Shown in pieces: positions 22,306 to 45,347 of a DNA stretch of 54,419 bases. Each line of letters starts with the position of its first letter. Within the stretch, counting starts at the first letter, position 1. This DNA comes from a bacterium (GTDB lineage: Bacteria > Latescibacterota > Latescibacteria > Latescibacterales > Latescibacteraceae). The stretch covers positions 1 to 54,419 of the forward strand of contig JAJFUH010000049.1 of NCBI GenBank assembly GCA_021372535.1. The letters run 5' to 3'. The position numbers and the translations under genes are program-made. Below the pieces are notes generated by a model, which made no database searches, was not told where the DNA came from, and worked only from the letters and a program-made list of their open reading frames with translations.

Positions 22306-22920
22306 ATGAACAAGACAATGCAAGTTTTCACCTTTCTTCTGGCGGTTATCATGCTGCTTGCCGTAATCGGGATATGTTTCTATTACGGCGGTATTCGCAA
22401 GTATGGCACACCGGCAGAATTCAAACGAAAACAGCTCGAAATAGCCAAGGCTCACCTTGATTCGATCAAGGCTGTTGAGAGTTTGCGGCTTTTACCGGAA
22501 AATGTTGCCGACTCGACTTTGTTCGGTATTGGAAGGCATACCGAACTATTTGAGGATGTTTTAAAATCGGAAAACAGGCTCGAAATGATCCAGGCTCTTC
22601 TCGATTCGGTCGAAAAGGAAAAGCAAGTGCTTGCGGATAAAGAAAAAGCGATAGATTCAAAAATCAGTCTTTTAACAACAAGCAGCACAACTTCCCGTGA
22701 AGCCAATATCAGGAAACTTGCCCAGATTTACAATGCCATGAAACCGCCTGATGCCGTTCCGCTGATCAGCGCCATGAATGACACGACCGCTGTTTCGATC
22801 TTAACCCTGATGAGCGAGCGTAATGCTTCACGGGTTCTCGGGGCGCTTGCTGAAAAGGATATTGAAAAGGCTACCAAGATAAACAGGCTCCTTGCTGACC
22901 TTGAAAGCATAAAACAATAA
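22306..22920 (+). CDS. MotE-like protein (MgtE N-domain), MotC/FliK-region chaperone type
   Basis: A 204-residue protein with one N-terminal membrane segment (about 7-27, VFTFLLAVIMLLAVIGICFYY), a long coiled coil (about 40-130) and a C-terminal MgtE-N-like domain (LAQIYNAMKPPDAVPLISAMNDTTAVSILTLMSERNASRVLGAL, in two segments). This order is typical of MotE/YlxF-type proteins encoded just before fliK; MotE is a periplasmic chaperone of MotC in rhizobia, but the role here is not known. ATG 22306 is chosen because GGAGGT (22291-22296) is 9 bases upstream; an ATG at 22297 is too close to it. The stop and the fliK start share one base (TAATG). Confidence 0.85.
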   Translation: MNKTMQVFTFLLAVIMLLAVIGICFYYGGIRKYGTPAEFKRKQLEIAKAHLDSIKAVESLRLLPENVADSTLFGIGRHTELFEDVLKSENRLEMIQALLDSVEKEKQVLADKEKAIDSKISLLTTSSTTSREANIRKLAQIYNAMKPPDAVPLISAMNDTTAVSILTLMSERNASRVLGALAEKDIEKATKINRLLADLESIKQ

Positions 22921-25900
22921 TGATTATACAACCACAAAGTGCCGGCTTTGAGAGTTTACTCAATCTTACTCCTGCCGCTAATGAAACGCCAGGATCATCG
23001 GGTGAGGCGGATTTTGCATCTCTGCTTTCTCAGATGATCGGGGGTACAGCCCCGCAGGTGACATTGAAGCAGCCGGTTACCGGGACACGATCCGGAAACT
23101 GCGCCGTTTCAGGCACTCCGGAACGTTTCCGGGCGAATCTCGTTGTTACATCGCAGGATGGTAAGGAAATGACCGTGCCTGTTATCATCACCGTAACCGA
23201 AAAAGGTGAGATTGTCATTACGCCGACAAACGAAGATATCCGGGTTGTTCCGGAATCATACCCCGGCGCAGTTGCTCAGGAGCAACCTGATGGGGAAAAT
23301 GTTACCGGTCTCCCGGGATATCAGGAAATATCCGCATATTTCAGTGATTCTGCAGCTCTTGCAGAACTCGTAACCGACGATAACCGTATGGTATTGATGC
23401 TGTCCACTGATACCGGAATCCTACCCGGAACGGATGGCGGAACCAGTCTGATTACCGATACTGCCCTGGCCGATGCACAACCTGCAGGATTCGGTCTCAT
23501 GTCATTCGGCGAAACAGCGTCCGAAAACAGCGATGCGACGGCAGTTACCGTCGATTCAACCGGTTCGGGTGAAAAAACCGGTTTTTCTGTTTTGAATATG
23601 GATACATTCAACGGCTCCATTCAGGAAAATAACGATATAATCGTTTCCGAAAACCAGGTGATCCCCGATACAGACAATACAGGCAAATCCGTAATGAATC
23701 AGTCAACGGAAACGGATCGTTCATTTACTACCTTCAATAATCCGGAGATACAGAACGCGACCATATTTACCGGGGACAGCGGCGATACCGGAATAATCAC
23801 CCGTGATGGAATGTTTTTCGGGAACCAGGGTAGCGCGACCGGCGCTTCCGGTATTTCAACGGAAAAACCGACACCCGTACTTGTACTCCGCACAGGTTCG
23901 GGAGATATTCCCGTAATCCTCAACAACAACGGAGCTGCGGCATCCGATAATACTGCCGTTACAATGCTCGCCGACCTTATCGATTCGGGAGCTCTTGTTG
24001 AAATTATTCTTGGAAATAATAGACCGGACGACTCAGAAAACATGACCGTAATTGAAGAGCAGACGGGCGAAAAGAGTGTCGATCCCCTGATCTTCGCAAA
24101 CCTTGCAGGCGATGAACGGGTGTCATTAACGGACACGAATTCTGAACCGGACAACACCGTTTTTGTTATGGGCGGACGTAATAAAAATATTCATCTGATG
24201 TCCGGAATATCGGGCAGCGATACCATCGCAGACATTACTGTGGAAGATGCTCCTGCGCAACCAGCGGAAAACACTCAGGCTGATGTTACCGCCGCCGCGC
24301 CGGATTTTTCAGGAAATATACAGTCAAACGCAAAAAGGCTGCCGGGGGGATTTGAGACGGTTTCAATCACAACCGACGCATACTACACCCCCTTAAACAC
24401 TAGTACGAATCCCCCCGAAGCCGAAATAAATCTTTCCGGATCGTCAGTCATGACGTCTGTTGAAATCAACAATTCCCCTGAAAATGAAGAAACCGTTGCA
24501 GTCATGATCTCACGTGTCTCCGGAACGGATTCCGATACCGGGCAGCCGACCGAGCTTCAGGATGGCAAGTCCGGGTATGTTGTGAAGCCTCTTATAACCC
24601 TGAACGTGACTGATGCTTCCCCTGCGGATAACCGCATGAATCCTGTGACTGTAAATGCCGATAACCATAAAACCGGTATCGATGGTATCCGGCTGCGAGA
24701 GGCAGCTTCAGAAGGAATAACCACCGAAACCGGAACTGACGGAACCGTTGAGTCTGATACTGAAATACCTGTCCGGGAATCCACGGTTTCTGTTAATGAT
24801 GGTGTGAGCAGCGCATCCGAACCGGAAGACACTTCAGTGAACAACCGGGTAAAAACCGTGGGAATCAGGATTACCAGGCCAGCCGGATCATCCCGTTTTC
24901 ATGTCAGCGATAGTGAAAGCGATTTACAGGGGATGATGTCTTCCGATGAAGGAGCTTTCCCTGTATTGTCCGAAAACGGGAACGGAACATCATTACTCAC
25001 ACAGGTTGACTCCTCCCGGGCCGGGCGAATTATTGTTCGGGAAGGCACAGTAAGAACATCCGGCGAGCTTAATAATGTCATGTCCGCCGACGGTGAAAAA
25101 ACAACTGTCAGGGAACCGGTGAAAACCGGCGGAAGTTTCGCGGCGGAATCCATTACGGCAGCACAGCAAAACGATACCGGAGCATCCGGTGTTATGACAT
25201 CCGGGTCCGTTCAGGGTGATTCCGAATTCAATCAGATCGTATCTTCGCAAGGCACAGCGGGACTGTCAGTTCAAACCACCGATCAGGTCGATGAAAACAG
25301 TACACGGCGAGAGTCGATTACCACGCAGACGGGAGAGGGGACGTTTTCCGAAACATCCGGAGCAGGTATGGCAGCCGAAACGGGTGAATCTGTGGAAGGC
25401 GCAGCTCGTAAAGATATGAAAACCACGGCAACGATTACCGTAACACCCGTGAAACACGAGAGAATTCGTTCCGATGCCACCGAAGCAACTGACGTTTCCC
25501 CATCAAAACAGACCATGATGAATGGTAGTGAAATATCCGATCTGTCCGGTTCGGTGAGCGGAACTGAAAAGCCTGATGATCAGGGGAACAGTTCCTTATC
25601 GTTTCAGGGAATCGCGGTTGATCACAAAACCGGGCATTCAACGGGAAAATACCATACCGGCGCGCGCTTTGAAAATACGACCGAACAAGCAGGAGCAGTG
25701 AATGGAACCGGAGTCGAAGCCGATGGGGGTAGCCCGGGGAATACAAACGGCGGCCCGATGGGCGGACAGGCGAAAAGTACAGCCCAAACCACCGGAACAG
25801 AGGTGATATTTGATTTTTCTCAGGAAAATGTTTCTGTCAGCACAAACGATTCAGCCAACGGTGATGATACAGCATCGGGCGGAATTATCAGGAACGACAT

Positions 25901-26423
25901 GCAGAGTGAGTTTGTTTCACTGTCGAAGCCGGGTTCTGCCCAGAGCGTCATGCCGCGATGGAATGCTTTTTCTCCCGAGACAGAATCAAAGATAATGAAC
26001 ACCGTGATACAGAATGCACGGTTCATGATCGCAAACGGGCATTCGAGCGCTGAAATAAGGCTCGAACCTCCGAATCTCGGGAAAATGAAACTCGATATCG
26101 TAACCGAAAACTCTAAAGTCACCGGTAAAATCACTGTCGAATCTCATGAAATAAAAGAAATTATTCAGAACAATCTGAGCGGTCTGAAAGATCAGCTCGC
26201 ACAAAGCGGTTTGAAGGTCGAATCGTTTGATGTTCAGGTAGGGCATAACAGCGGCGCCGATGCGTGGGCCAATCGTCAGAATGCCGAAAATATGAACTTT
26301 AATCTGCGCCGTAATGCGAATACCTCCGTAACCGGAACTGCTGAGAAATACGATGTTACCGGAGGAGAAACGGTACTGCGCGGAAAATCTATGAATTCGG
26401 ACTATCTTGATTTATGGATGTAA
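22920..26423 (+). CDS. fliK: Giant flagellar hook-length control protein FliK
   Basis: A 1167-residue FliK, about three times the enteric length (about 400). The first 1000 residues are low-complexity, rich in Thr, Ser, Gly, Asp, Glu and Asn, with no cysteine-rich or repeat structure that I can define. The C-terminal substrate-switch (Flg_hook) domain is at about 1041-1108 with EIRLEPPNLGKMKLDI, VESHEIKEIIQNNL and LAQSGLKVESFDVQV. FliK is exported during hook growth, measures hook length and then makes FlhB switch to filament substrates. It is followed 15 bases later by flgD, and overlaps the motE-like gene by one base. Confidence 0.93.
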   Translation: MIIQPQSAGFESLLNLTPAANETPGSSGEADFASLLSQMIGGTAPQVTLKQPVTGTRSGNCAVSGTPERFRANLVVTSQDGKEMTVPVIITVTEKGEIVITPTNEDIRVVPESYPGAVAQEQPDGENVTGLPGYQEISAYFSDSAALAELVTDDNRMVLMLSTDTGILPGTDGGTSLITDTALADAQPAGFGLMSFGETASENSDATAVTVDSTGSGEKTGFSVLNMDTFNGSIQENNDIIVSENQVIPDTDNTGKSVMNQSTETDRSFTTFNNPEIQNATIFTGDSGDTGIITRDGMFFGNQGSATGASGISTEKPTPVLVLRTGSGDIPVILNNNGAAASDNTAVTMLADLIDSGALVEIILGNNRPDDSENMTVIEEQTGEKSVDPLIFANLAGDERVSLTDTNSEPDNTVFVMGGRNKNIHLMSGISGSDTIADITVEDAPAQPAENTQADVTAAAPDFSGNIQSNAKRLPGGFETVSITTDAYYTPLNTSTNPPEAEINLSGSSVMTSVEINNSPENEETVAVMISRVSGTDSDTGQPTELQDGKSGYVVKPLITLNVTDASPADNRMNPVTVNADNHKTGIDGIRLREAASEGITTETGTDGTVESDTEIPVRESTVSVNDGVSSASEPEDTSVNNRVKTVGIRITRPAGSSRFHVSDSESDLQGMMSSDEGAFPVLSENGNGTSLLTQVDSSRAGRIIVREGTVRTSGELNNVMSADGEKTTVREPVKTGGSFAAESITAAQQNDTGASGVMTSGSVQGDSEFNQIVSSQGTAGLSVQTTDQVDENSTRRESITTQTGEGTFSETSGAGMAAETGESVEGAARKDMKTTATITVTPVKHERIRSDATEATDVSPSKQTMMNGSEISDLSGSVSGTEKPDDQGNSSLSFQGIAVDHKTGHSTGKYHTGARFENTTEQAGAVNGTGVEADGGSPGNTNGGPMGGQAKSTAQTTGTEVIFDFSQENVSVSTNDSANGDDTASGGIIRNDMQSEFVSLSKPGSAQSVMPRWNAFSPETESKIMNTVIQNARFMIANGHSSAEIRLEPPNLGKMKLDIVTENSKVTGKITVESHEIKEIIQNNLSGLKDQLAQSGLKVESFDVQVGHNSGADAWANRQNAENMNFNLRRNANTSVTGTAEKYDVTGGETVLRGKSMNSDYLDLWM

Positions 26424-36736: not shown

Positions 36737-37804
36737 TTGCCCGAGGATACCGGTCAGGAAAGAACCGAACAGGCGACTCAAAAACGCCGTGAAGAAACGC
36801 GTAAAAGAGGGCAGGTAGCCCGTTCCACCGAGGTAAGTTCGGCCATCATGCTTCTCGCTGGTTTCAGCGTTCTCATGCTGTTCCGCCGCCACATACTCCA
36901 GGGACTGGAACGCTATGTAACGGGAGTGTTTACCCAGAGTTACACGTACGATCTCGGCCTATCCAACATCCGTGGTCTTCTCATGAATGCGATTATCACA
37001 TTTTTTACCATTCTCCTGCCGGTATTTGTGGTCATGGCTATTGCGGGAATTGCGGTGAACGTTCTTCAGGTGGGATTTCTGTTTACCGGTGAGCCGCTCA
37101 TGCCGAAAGCCGAGAAAATCAATCCGTTCGAAGGTGCGAAACGTATTTTGTCGAGAAGATCGTTCGAGACGCTCGTACGAGATGTCATAAAAATTATTGT
37201 CGTGGCATGGATCGGTTACCGGGCGCTCAGGGGATTCATGAACGATATCATGATTGTTTCGGATTCGACGGTCGGGAATATTTTTGCATTTACCGGATAT
37301 ACCGTGTTTTCCATTGCACTCAAGATACTTATCGGATATGCGGTGATTGCTATACTCGATTACGGTTTCCAGCGCTGGGATTACGAACGGTCGATGATGA
37401 TGACCCGTCAGGAGCTGAAGGAGGAGATGAAACAGGCCGAGGGCGATCCTCTCCTGAGAGCGCGGATACGGTCTGTTCAGCGTGAGCTCTCACGGCGCCG
37501 TATGATGGAAGAGGTCCCGAAAGCCGAGGTGGTGGTTACCAACCCGACGCGGCTTGCGGTTGCGCTTTCCTATCAGCCCGGCATGACTGCTCCTGTCGTG
37601 GTGGCGAAGGGCAAGAACCTCATTGCGGAAAAAATCCGCACAATAGCCATAGAATCGGGTGTGCCCATCATCGAAAACGTTCTTCTTGCACAGGCGCTCT
37701 TCAAGGCCGTGGAAATAGGCAATCCTATTCCTCCCGATCTCTATACCGCAGTGGCCGAGGTTCTTGCATACGTATACCGTCTCAAAGGGAAAAAAGTGGT
37801 ATAA
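36737..37804 (+). CDS. flhB: Flagellar export gate switch protein FlhB, NPTR variant
   Basis: A 355-residue FlhB with four membrane segments (about 35-50, 83-112, 147-168, 183-210) and a cytoplasmic C-terminal domain. The self-cleavage site normally reads NPTH; here residues 269-272 read Asn-Pro-Thr-Arg, with CGG as the codon of the fourth. The C-terminal domain then runs LAVALSYQPGMTAPVVVAKGKNLIAEKIRTIAIESGVPI, ending in the acidic/basic tail. FlhB sets the switch from hook to filament export after FliK acts on it. TTG 36737 has a strong GGGGAGGTGA site upstream. Confidence 0.96.
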   Translation: MPEDTGQERTEQATQKRREETRKRGQVARSTEVSSAIMLLAGFSVLMLFRRHILQGLERYVTGVFTQSYTYDLGLSNIRGLLMNAIITFFTILLPVFVVMAIAGIAVNVLQVGFLFTGEPLMPKAEKINPFEGAKRILSRRSFETLVRDVIKIIVVAWIGYRALRGFMNDIMIVSDSTVGNIFAFTGYTVFSIALKILIGYAVIAILDYGFQRWDYERSMMMTRQELKEEMKQAEGDPLLRARIRSVQRELSRRRMMEEVPKAEVVVTNPTRLAVALSYQPGMTAPVVVAKGKNLIAEKIRTIAIESGVPIIENVLLAQALFKAVEIGNPIPPDLYTAVAEVLAYVYRLKGKKVV

Positions 37805-42996: not shown

Positions 42997-43344
42997 ATGG
43001 TACGACCGATTGAAATAACCGATTCACTGTCGAAAGTTCAAGCCGTCGAACGAATGCAGCAGGACGCGAAATTGCAGCCTGAGGTTCTTCAGCAGTTTCA
43101 GAAGACCCTGGCGGGAAAACAGACGGAGAAAAGGATTACATCACCGAATCCCGTTCCTCAGGGCGATCTGGTCGTTCTTCATACCGACCAGCAGGAAAAA
43201 GAAAAACGAAAAACCGCAGAAGACGAACAGCCTGAACATGAAAACCGTGAGAACACCGGGGAAAGCCCGGAAGAATCCGACCACAAAGATGGGAAAAGCG
43301 GCGACGAACACATCCCGCCGGCTCATATCGACATAAAAGTGTAG
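42997..43344 (+). CDS. Small acidic protein of unknown function between fliA and the second FliK-like gene
   Basis: A 115-residue protein I do not recognise. The first 60 residues contain a helical stretch (SKVQAVERMQQDAKLQPEVLQQFQ), and the rest is highly polar, rich in Glu, Lys, Asp and Gln (about 63-100), so probably disordered. There is no signal peptide. It starts 15 bases after fliA, so it is likely co-expressed. Possible roles as a regulator or export partner cannot be tested here. Confidence 0.6.
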   Translation: MVRPIEITDSLSKVQAVERMQQDAKLQPEVLQQFQKTLAGKQTEKRITSPNPVPQGDLVVLHTDQQEKEKRKTAEDEQPEHENRENTGESPEESDHKDGKSGDEHIPPAHIDIKV

Positions 43345-43431
43345 TCTCGCTGTTTTTCCTCGTATTGAATCACGTACCCATACTATGAATCAGCCTGATT
43401 TCCCGTTTTTTCACTTCCGGGGGTGTTTATT

Positions 43432-45054
43432 GTGAGGATAACCGGTACGGGCGCGCCCAATGTCAACCGGCCGGAGCATGCCTCACGTTTCCCGGCTTCA
43501 TCACAGGTTACCGTACCCGTACAGACACCGCATACACCTGAAGAAACGTCAGTTTCCGGTCTCACATCGATTTTTTCCCGGAAACATGTCACAGTTTCAC
43601 CGACCGAAGTTCAGGCTCTCGTAACAGAGCTCCTTTCTCTCGGCATCAACCCCTCTGACATGGATGCAGAGAGCTCCCTGCGCGCCCTTGTTCTCCGACG
43701 TAACAGTATACCACTGACCGCAGAACTGGTGAAAAACGCTACCGATGATGAGAGTATGGTTTTTACCCGACTCGGTTCTCTGGGCGACAGCGTTCGTTCG
43801 ATTCTTTCCGGAAAACGGCTGCCGGGTGAAATACGCGCTACACTTGAACGTTTTATCGCCGATCTTGACTCACTGTTCACAACCGAAGCCATGAAAGGAT
43901 CGCCGGGCAGTATGATCGAGGACAGCATTACCGCATGGACCCGGAACATCGAGCTACGGCTTGTGCATGCGCTGGCGGGTGAACGCGACGGTATGCCGGG
44001 ATTTTTTACCGGCGCTGCGGGTGTAAGTCCTTCAGCTGCAAATGACTTCGGAACGTTATTCGAGGTGTTGAACAACAATCCGAAACTGGCCGGCATGTTT
44101 GAAAAAATCGAAACAGCGGCGGGAGAAGTCATATCATGGATTCAGGGTATCGAATCCGGTCAGGGCAGTACCACCGGAATAATCGATGAAGCCGTCGCTC
44201 TGATGGGGCAGCGTTTGAACACGCTTGCGGCGGAACTGAATGTATATCTGACAGAAGCGGGAGTGAAGGGTCTGACTGACGGAATGGTTGCGGAATTTAT
44301 GCGCGGACAGGTGCAAACGCTTGAAAACATCCTCCTTGACAATTTTGCCACTCCGGTTGCTGCAAACGGCAAAACGGGTGTATTCTGGGAAGCCGGAGAA
44401 GAAGCGCTCTCCGTTCAAAACATACTTAAAAACAGCGGTATCGCTTTTGAATGGCGCCTTCTGGCATGGTACCGCTCCGGCAGGGATCCATCCCGTCTTC
44501 AGGAGCTCATTCGCAGTGATGTCAAGGGCATCCTGACATCATTACTGACACGCCTGAAACACCATGAAGGGGAAAGCCGCAGCTCCGGTATGCTACGAAC
44601 CCTCAATCAGGAAACCAGATCGCTTCTGGACAGCATCTCCCGGCGCCAGATTTCTTCCATTCTCCAGAGCCAAGAGAACATCCATGGGATGTATTTCGAT
44701 CTGCCCTTCGGTGATGTCCGTAATAAACTGAATGCCCGGATATGGGTCAACGGCAGGAATAAGCCCGGCGGGAATACTATCGATTCAAGGAATTTCACGT
44801 TTTCATTCGATGCCGAAACCGTCAATCTCGGTCGGGTGAAAGTATTTATGAATGTGCTTAACGGCGTGATGTCGCTCCGGTTCTCAATGAGCGACGAGGA
44901 TCAGACCGATCTGGTCCGCGAGATGCAGCATGAGCTTGTCGATTCGCTGAGTGCCCGCGGATTCATTATCGGCTCGGTCAGTGCCGGCGTCCGCAAAGAA
45001 GGTGAGGGAGACGGCGGTTCCGCGCCCGGAGGCAGTCTGGATATCGTGAGATGA
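43432..45054 (+). CDS. Second FliK-like protein (flagellar hook-length control C-domain)
   Basis: A 540-residue protein with an alpha-helical N-terminal part (about 1-400) and a C-terminal domain (about 452-520) of the FliK switch type: RNFTFSFDAETVNLGRVKVFMNVLNGVMSLRFSMSDEDQ followed by LVDSLSARGFIIGSVSAGV, given here in segments. This is the same fold pattern as the C-terminus of FliK at about 26043. GTG 43432 is chosen because GGGGG is 8 bases upstream; GTG 43423 is an alternative. The stop overlaps the next gene (ATGA), which encodes a FlhB C-domain homologue, so the pair is likely to function together, as YlqG/YlqH-type pairs do. The call as FliK-like rests on the C-terminus alone. Confidence 0.75.
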   Translation: MRITGTGAPNVNRPEHASRFPASSQVTVPVQTPHTPEETSVSGLTSIFSRKHVTVSPTEVQALVTELLSLGINPSDMDAESSLRALVLRRNSIPLTAELVKNATDDESMVFTRLGSLGDSVRSILSGKRLPGEIRATLERFIADLDSLFTTEAMKGSPGSMIEDSITAWTRNIELRLVHALAGERDGMPGFFTGAAGVSPSAANDFGTLFEVLNNNPKLAGMFEKIETAAGEVISWIQGIESGQGSTTGIIDEAVALMGQRLNTLAAELNVYLTEAGVKGLTDGMVAEFMRGQVQTLENILLDNFATPVAANGKTGVFWEAGEEALSVQNILKNSGIAFEWRLLAWYRSGRDPSRLQELIRSDVKGILTSLLTRLKHHEGESRSSGMLRTLNQETRSLLDSISRRQISSILQSQENIHGMYFDLPFGDVRNKLNARIWVNGRNKPGGNTIDSRNFTFSFDAETVNLGRVKVFMNVLNGVMSLRFSMSDEDQTDLVREMQHELVDSLSARGFIIGSVSAGVRKEGEGDGGSAPGGSLDIVR

Positions 45055-45347
45055 AAAAACTACGTAAACGCGTCCTGACCGACCGTAAAACCGCAGCTGC
45101 ACTCAGATACCGTCAGCATGAGGATCGCGCTCCGAAGCTCGTAGCGAAAGGCGCAGGAGTAATAGCCGAAAAGATAATCGCGGCGGCCCGCGAAGCAGGA
45201 GTGCCGATCTATGAGGACCCCGATCTTCTCGCCCTCCTCATGACCCTCAACATTGGTGAGGTTATTCCGCCCGAACTGTATACAGCCGTTGCGGAAGTCC
45301 TCGTGTTCATCTACCGGATGAATAAAAAAGCTGTCGGGTTCCCCTGA
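45051..45347 (+). CDS. FlhB C-terminal-domain homologue (FlhB2/YlqH/FlhX type)
   Basis: A 98-residue protein matching the part of FlhB after the cleavage site: LVAKGAGVIAEKIIAAAREAGVPIYEDPDLLALLMTLNIGEVIPPELYTAVAEVLVFIYRMNKK, shown in parts, lines up closely with FlhB residues about 295-355. It has no membrane segments and no NPTH. Such proteins can partly replace the FlhB C-domain in Salmonella and may bind export substrates or FliK. The start overlaps the preceding FliK-like gene by four bases. Confidence 0.92.
   Translation: MKKLRKRVLTDRKTAAALRYRQHEDRAPKLVAKGAGVIAEKIIAAAREAGVPIYEDPDLLALLMTLNIGEVIPPELYTAVAEVLVFIYRMNKKAVGFP

Follow-up and report, generated by a model that had tools for sequence, protein, structure and literature searches.

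The window, the whole 54,419-nucleotide stretch of Latescibacteraceae DNA analysed here, carries a flagellar gene cluster in which a second protein with a FliK-type (T3S4) switch domain is encoded directly before a free-standing homologue of the cleaved FlhB C-terminal domain. These two proteins, of 540 and 98 residues, are labelled FliK2 and FlhB2 in this analysis. FliK2 adjoins FlhB2 in 96 of 122 distinct loci, from several phyla. From domain identities, pairing, co-occurrence, and retained or lost residues, all of them computed, we tentatively favor, at a little short of an even chance, the reading that FliK2 and FlhB2 form a second specificity-switch pair, a lock and its cognate partner, that would act in trans on the same flagellar type III export gate. 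The features concerned are these:

22920 to 26423, forward strand: canonical FliK, 1167 residues, with a C-terminal Flg_hook match (E 5.5e-20) and the tail YLDLWM
36737 to 37804, forward strand: full-length FlhB, 355 residues, with NPTR at the autocleavage site instead of NPTH
42997 to 43344, forward strand: orf115, 115 residues of low complexity, after FliA and directly upstream of FliK2, ending HIDIKV
43432 to 45054, forward strand: FliK2, 540 residues, with about 36-413 predicted helical, the T3S4/Flg_hook switch domain at 420-520, and a C-terminal tail ending SLDIVR
44806 to 45000, forward strand: Flg_hook (PF02120) match in FliK2, residues 459-523
45051 to 45347, forward strand: FlhB2, 98 residues with an ATG start, a free-standing homologue of the cleaved FlhB C-terminal domain, without NPTH

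In the ORF listing, FliK2 can start at a GTG at 43423 (543 residues) or at a second in-frame GTG at 43432 (540 residues), the latter directly preceded by a G-rich stretch, and its stop ends at 45054. An ATGA overlap joins it to FlhB2, which begins at 45051, just as an earlier note on this DNA had described. The same note placed a full FlhB and a giant FliK in the cluster, and the ORF listing and Pfam results confirm both.

The C-terminus of FliK2 is a genuine FliK-type switch domain, as the note had also claimed; Flg_hook, hhalign and Foldseek agree on it. The Flg_hook match in the called protein has E 1.4e-6 and 28.5 bits, below the curated cut-off of 29.8, so annotation that relies on cut-offs would overlook the domain in the called protein; in a six-frame scan the match reaches 31.1 bits and exceeds the cut-off. 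Among the window protein and 23 relatives, 21 of 24 have a Flg_hook match with E no higher than 1 (best 4.9e-17), while NCBIfam FliK models match none of the 24; FliK2 differs from FliK in often falling below a Pfam or NCBIfam call. Similarity to FliK, whose absence had been named beforehand as the outcome that would count against this reading, was found by profile-profile comparison: hhalign of 23 aligned FliK2 C-terminal domains against 37 from canonical FliK gave probability 97.4 and E 1.5e-11 over 77 columns. An attempt to use our own canonical-FliK profile with long flanks was abandoned as too insensitive.

Structure comparison with a single-chain model of FliK2 points the same way. AlphaFold2 gave a model of the window protein with low overall confidence (mean pLDDT 66.7, pTM 0.34), with blocks of the C-terminal domain mostly at 64-90. 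Its top-ranked Foldseek match is the switch domain of PscP, 5cuk, with probability 1.00, E only 0.055, and rmsd 1.7 over 68 columns; the FliK C-terminal domain, 2rrl, appears at rank 50 with probability 0.95. VIA aligns 79 residues of the model with 5cuk at Z 6.1, while other parts of the model give helical matches of higher Z. Both solved T3S4 folds were recovered with two models, that of the window protein and that of a Thermoclostridium relative (locus L018), at modest scores, Foldseek E-values for the domain being 0.04-0.66 across the two. Searching PDB sequences with a profile gives weak matches in the same direction (5cuk E 0.035, 2rrl E 0.56). A whole-length profile of the window protein, run against PDB, returned nothing beyond chance matches, helical or otherwise (FAK, spike, S1-type). 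The VIA matches of the helical middle (9exk, McpS, talin; Z 6-9) are to helical bundles, and we do not interpret them. FliK2 thus shares with the FliK C-terminal domain (PF02120; PDB 2rrl) the domain core, the positions of the V302/I304 type, and a tail resembling h-D-h-x-[AV]. Its best solved-structure match is to an injectisome ruler of the PscP/SctP type, from which it differs in its flagellar gene context and to which the sequence link is weak.

FlhB2 matches columns 261-335 of the 335 in PF01312 with E 4.4e-20, and also TIGR00789 (flhB_rel), with E 2.7e-28, short of the cut-off set for that model. Its alignment to Salmonella FlhB 273-352 puts its start close to that of the cleaved fragment, and it has no transmembrane part. 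NPTH occurs in none of the 122 distinct free-standing FlhB2 loci. In Salmonella, according to sections 11-14 of PMC13344023, A286, P287, A341 and L344 make up the early-substrate pocket, and the early mode is locked by the cleaved FlhB domain, whose loss is FliK-dependent. The window FlhB2 keeps these four residues as A27, P28, A81 and L84, and they are kept in 106, 121, 120 and 108 of the 122 loci, respectively. Judged by its sequence, FlhB2 resembles a pre-cleaved FlhB with the early-substrate pocket retained. Free-standing FlhB domains are already known: FlhX/HP1575 of Helicobacter and other Campylobacterota is the same kind of protein, the FlhB C-terminal domain alone, of the TIGR00789 type.

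As a separate observation, the full-length FlhB of the window carries NPTR, and FlhB of relatives that have no FlhB2 carries NPTL, NPIR or NPVR. A trade-off between FlhB2 and loss of the cleavage histidine was considered and rejected: NPTH is present in five FlhB2-bearing genomes (G007, G018, G025, G026 and G027), and NPTL, NPIR or NPVR occurs in several genomes without FlhB2.

That the FliK-like gene belongs with the FlhB C-domain homologue, as the earlier note supposed, is borne out by adjacency in the distinct loci and by a Pfam-based count. Scanning genome contigs with FlhB2 found 29 loci, of which 28 are free-standing; with samples of Latescibacterota, Bacillota-type and Desulfobacterota-type genomes the set grew to 125 loci, 122 of them distinct. 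Three pairs of loci are the same genes and were counted once (L006/L039, L018/L140, L010/L185), L014 and L015 are two loci of one genome, L153 was replaced by the longer L230, and L034 and other full-length FlhB loci were left out. FliK2 is a neighbor in 23 of 28 loci of the initial set, 3 of 9 from Latescibacterota, 54 of 62 from the Bacillota-type sample, and 19 of 26 from the Desulfobacterota-type sample. An iterated FliK2 profile matched 99 of 941 ORFs, and all 99 adjoin FlhB2; the profile was seeded with 15 members from the initial scan and each round added neighbors only, which somewhat favors the final count, but the first round, from the 15 seeds alone, gave 93 matches, every one a neighbor of FlhB2.

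The Pfam Flg_hook count is independent of our own profile. Of the 101 Bacillota-type genomes, 59 carry free-standing FlhB2, 62 genes in all. For 38 of the 62, a Flg_hook domain lies no more than 1.2 kb away on the same strand, upstream in 35 cases and downstream in 3. Every one of the 37 genomes in which Flg_hook occurs at least twice also has FlhB2, and each of the 38 additional domains adjoins it. None of the 27 FlhB-positive genomes without FlhB2 has a second Flg_hook (Fisher p 3e-9, with kinship ignored). Long open frames at L172, L187 and L194 were inspected as possible FliK2-FlhB2 fusions of the Rosetta stone kind, and looked like GC-rich read-through.

FlhB2 lacks an adjacent FliK2 in 26 of the 122 loci. 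In two clostridial genomes (G084, G090), FlhB2 is unpaired and a second Flg_hook lies elsewhere in the genome. The FlhX-type gene of a Campylobacteraceae genome (locus L031, genome G088) has no adjacent FliK2, unlike the window, and a whole-genome search found a single Flg_hook match there, so FlhB2 is probably able to function in the absence of FliK2.

The window's own phylum shows that the two genes may be separated and still be kept together. Among 64 Latescibacterota genomes, 25 have FlhB-type matches and nine have a free-standing FlhB2. FliK2 adjoins it in three of the nine: the window's own genome (G000, 5.35 Mb), G006, and the same-genus genome G007, where the gene order is that of the window. 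In the other six FlhB2 lies away from FliK2, in four of them beside a gene that may be serS, and a FliK2-type gene was found in all six. In five of these (G018, G024, G025, G026, G027) that gene stands behind flagellar or accessory genes; in G017 it was identified from Flg_hook and the tail only. Six of the nine FlhB2-bearing genomes have at least two Flg_hook matches, and G017, G024 and G025 have one each, assigned to FliK2 by tail or context; none of the 16 phylum genomes with FlhB but without FlhB2 has two. The third match in G000 (contig C18, 24013-24186, E 2.4e-4) is spurious, its ORF being read as ribosomal protein S9 from sequence and neighbors, so, in other genomes, matches of about 1e-3 to 1e-4 are individually weak.

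FlhB2 also tracks FliK2 rather than FliK. In 18 genomes, with short sequences and with kinship ignored, FlhB2 distances correlate with FliK2 distances given FliK (partial rho 0.49, permutation p 0.001), and hardly at all with FliK distances given FliK2 (0.03, p 0.38).

Parts of the switch domain that have been connected with FlhB are kept in FliK2. In Salmonella FliK, V302 and I304 crosslink to the FlhB C-terminal domain, as reported in PMC6972891, and section 14 of PMC13344023 presents a proposal that the last five residues act on the FlhB domain. The positions of V302 and I304 are kept in the window protein (LGRVKV, in the alignment view). A permissive form of the tail pattern fits 88 of 99 profile-positive FliK2 sequences, 34 of 37 FliK and 5 of 240 background ORFs; the window tail SLDIVR, ending in R rather than A or V, fits only this permissive form.

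One position sets the two families apart. The proline four residues before the glycine of the LG motif, which corresponds to Salmonella P296 by its spacing to V302/I304 in 2rrl, is present in 37 of 37 canonical FliK and in 4 of 98 FliK2, a count that includes the window reference, may include the three duplicate genes, and omits two of 100 rows that lack G in the reference column. The FliK2 residues at this column are T (49), L (22), M (14), S (4), P (4), V (3), K (1) and I (1). PscP (LPQLG) likewise has no proline there, and the P296-type proline is a FliK-specific feature rather than one found T3S4-wide. According to section 13 of PMC13344023, P296L in Salmonella FliK causes a premature switch, and P296S and P296T are suppressors. 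Given the early switching of P296L, loss of the proline suggests that FliK2 may act independently of length; its absence from PscP means that proline loss alone is no proof of this.

The N-terminal part of FliK2 is less disorder-prone than that of FliK (TOP-IDP propensity 0.09 against 0.19). The model of the Thermoclostridium relative (mean pLDDT 81.3) shows an OB-fold, a helical part, the T3S4 domain and a floppy tail; its residues 18-90 match OB-fold proteins (eIF5A, S1, IF1) with VIA Z up to 6.7, where Z below 8 may reflect a common arrangement only. An OB-fold, as in this model (L018, 2714-4270), is unusual in a FliK-like protein, and a small beta-rich N-terminal region seems common in FliK2 relatives outside the window's family. 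The window FliK2 has no OB part, and its N-terminal portion is predicted to be mostly helical. The models suggest that FliK2 is folded, unlike a disordered ruler.

The gene directly upstream of FliK2, orf115, may be a third member of the module. It ends HIDIKV, a C-terminal tail of the FliK/FliK2 type. The family is found in 23 of the 64 phylum genomes, one further match (L254) being spurious, and every member read has an h-D-h-x-[AVI] tail at its end except L249, whose reading frame diverges from the rest. In a set of 18, no column is invariant but that of the tail Asp. The Desulfobacterota-type sample of 59 genomes gave seven matches, six of them credible, with ends of the form h-[DN]-h-x-[AVI]. 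At two loci (L255, L256) orf115 lies two genes before FliK2; it is also present in genomes without FliK2 and FlhB2, and so is not restricted to the pair.

A relative of the pair occurs in Bacillus velezensis (L262, 2283-3986), where the gene for a 567-residue protein overlaps an FlhB-like gene; the protein is recognized by the FliK2 profile (E 3.7e-16) and has KVDVKI as its last residues. The gene order is ylqF, RNase HII, the 567-residue protein, the FlhB-like protein, and sucC, with no flagellar operon genes among the listed neighbors. We take this locus to be ylqG-ylqH, although the record itself names only ylqF. The RefSeq-derived record annotates the 567-residue protein as "glycosyl transferase"; a Pfam scan of it returned no Flg_hook match and no support for that name.

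How the pair might work can be outlined. FlhB2 would be made already "cut", with its pocket intact, and could replace the domain borne by FlhB, so holding the gate in the early (rod/hook) mode or returning it there. The T3S4 domain and C-terminal tail of FliK2 would engage FlhB2 and control whether it remains at the gate. With its mostly folded build and without a P296-type proline, FliK2 is probably not a second ruler; it would more probably be cytoplasmic, or make a pause independent of hook length. Binding between FliK2 and FlhB2, exchange with FlhB, and the order of events are what we infer here.

Three other accounts are ranked below a pair acting in trans. HP1575, the Helicobacter homologue of FlhB2, is reportedly called a "spare part" for the FlhB C-terminal domain in the title of Wand 2006, and both parts of the switch domain are kept in FliK2, so the pair might be duplicate switch parts used if FliK or the FlhB C-terminal domain fails, a backup that the earlier note had also entertained. 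We consider it unlikely, since FliK2 differs systematically from FliK, with no P296-equivalent proline in 94 of 98 and a folded, less disorder-prone N-terminal part, since FlhB2 follows FliK2 and not FliK, and since a mere spare would not be expected to be widely conserved. The ATGA overlap in the window, close linkage elsewhere, the folded non-ruler build and the cognate distance signal would also suit an anti-factor or chaperone that keeps FlhB2 cytoplasmic until a signal releases it and never acts on the gate; we judge this improbable to the same degree, the tail kept by FliK2 being the part of FliK that is proposed, in section 14 of PMC13344023, to act on the gate. Much less probable still is regulation outside export, in which a presumed N-terminal OB-fold of most FliK2 proteins, as seen in the Thermoclostridium model, would bind RNA or another ligand and the pair would couple gene expression to the state of the gate: OB folds bind many things, the Z values may mean a common arrangement only, and the window protein has no such domain.

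The note's further suggestion that the FliK likeness is unannotated in such pairs largely holds. The NCBIfam result and the B. velezensis annotation agree with it, but a "flhX-fliK" pair is written for Nitratiruptor in the text of PMC9321776 (PLoS Genet 2022). In the passages of PMC3708937 examined, no such pair is described. As far as titles and abstracts of the open-licence literature show, there is no relevant pairing of "FliK-like" with "FlhB-like" or of FliK2 with FlhB2; in that literature we found no paper naming both YlqG and YlqH, and no account of a general pairing rule, retention when unlinked, the kept tail, the proline difference, or the B. velezensis case.

Returning to FliK2 and FlhB2 as a second switch pair on the gate, the pair probably gives the export machine a second way to time its change of cargo. 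The Salmonella switch was described in 2026, in the abstract and sections 11-14 of PMC13344023, as irreversible, through FliK-driven loss of the cleaved FlhB domain. A wider and doubtful extension is that the switch is reversible in many bacteria: FlhB2 would re-cap gates after FliK removes the FlhB domain, FliK2 would load or eject FlhB2 independently of hook length, and the FliK tail would be a general ligand of FlhB domains in at least three families (FliK, FliK2 and orf115). The Bacillus relative makes the pair testable in a laboratory strain, and a misleading "glycosyl transferase" annotation is corrected. A widespread pair that supplies a free FlhB domain together with its own FliK-type partner would either break the rule of irreversibility or reveal a second layer of control.
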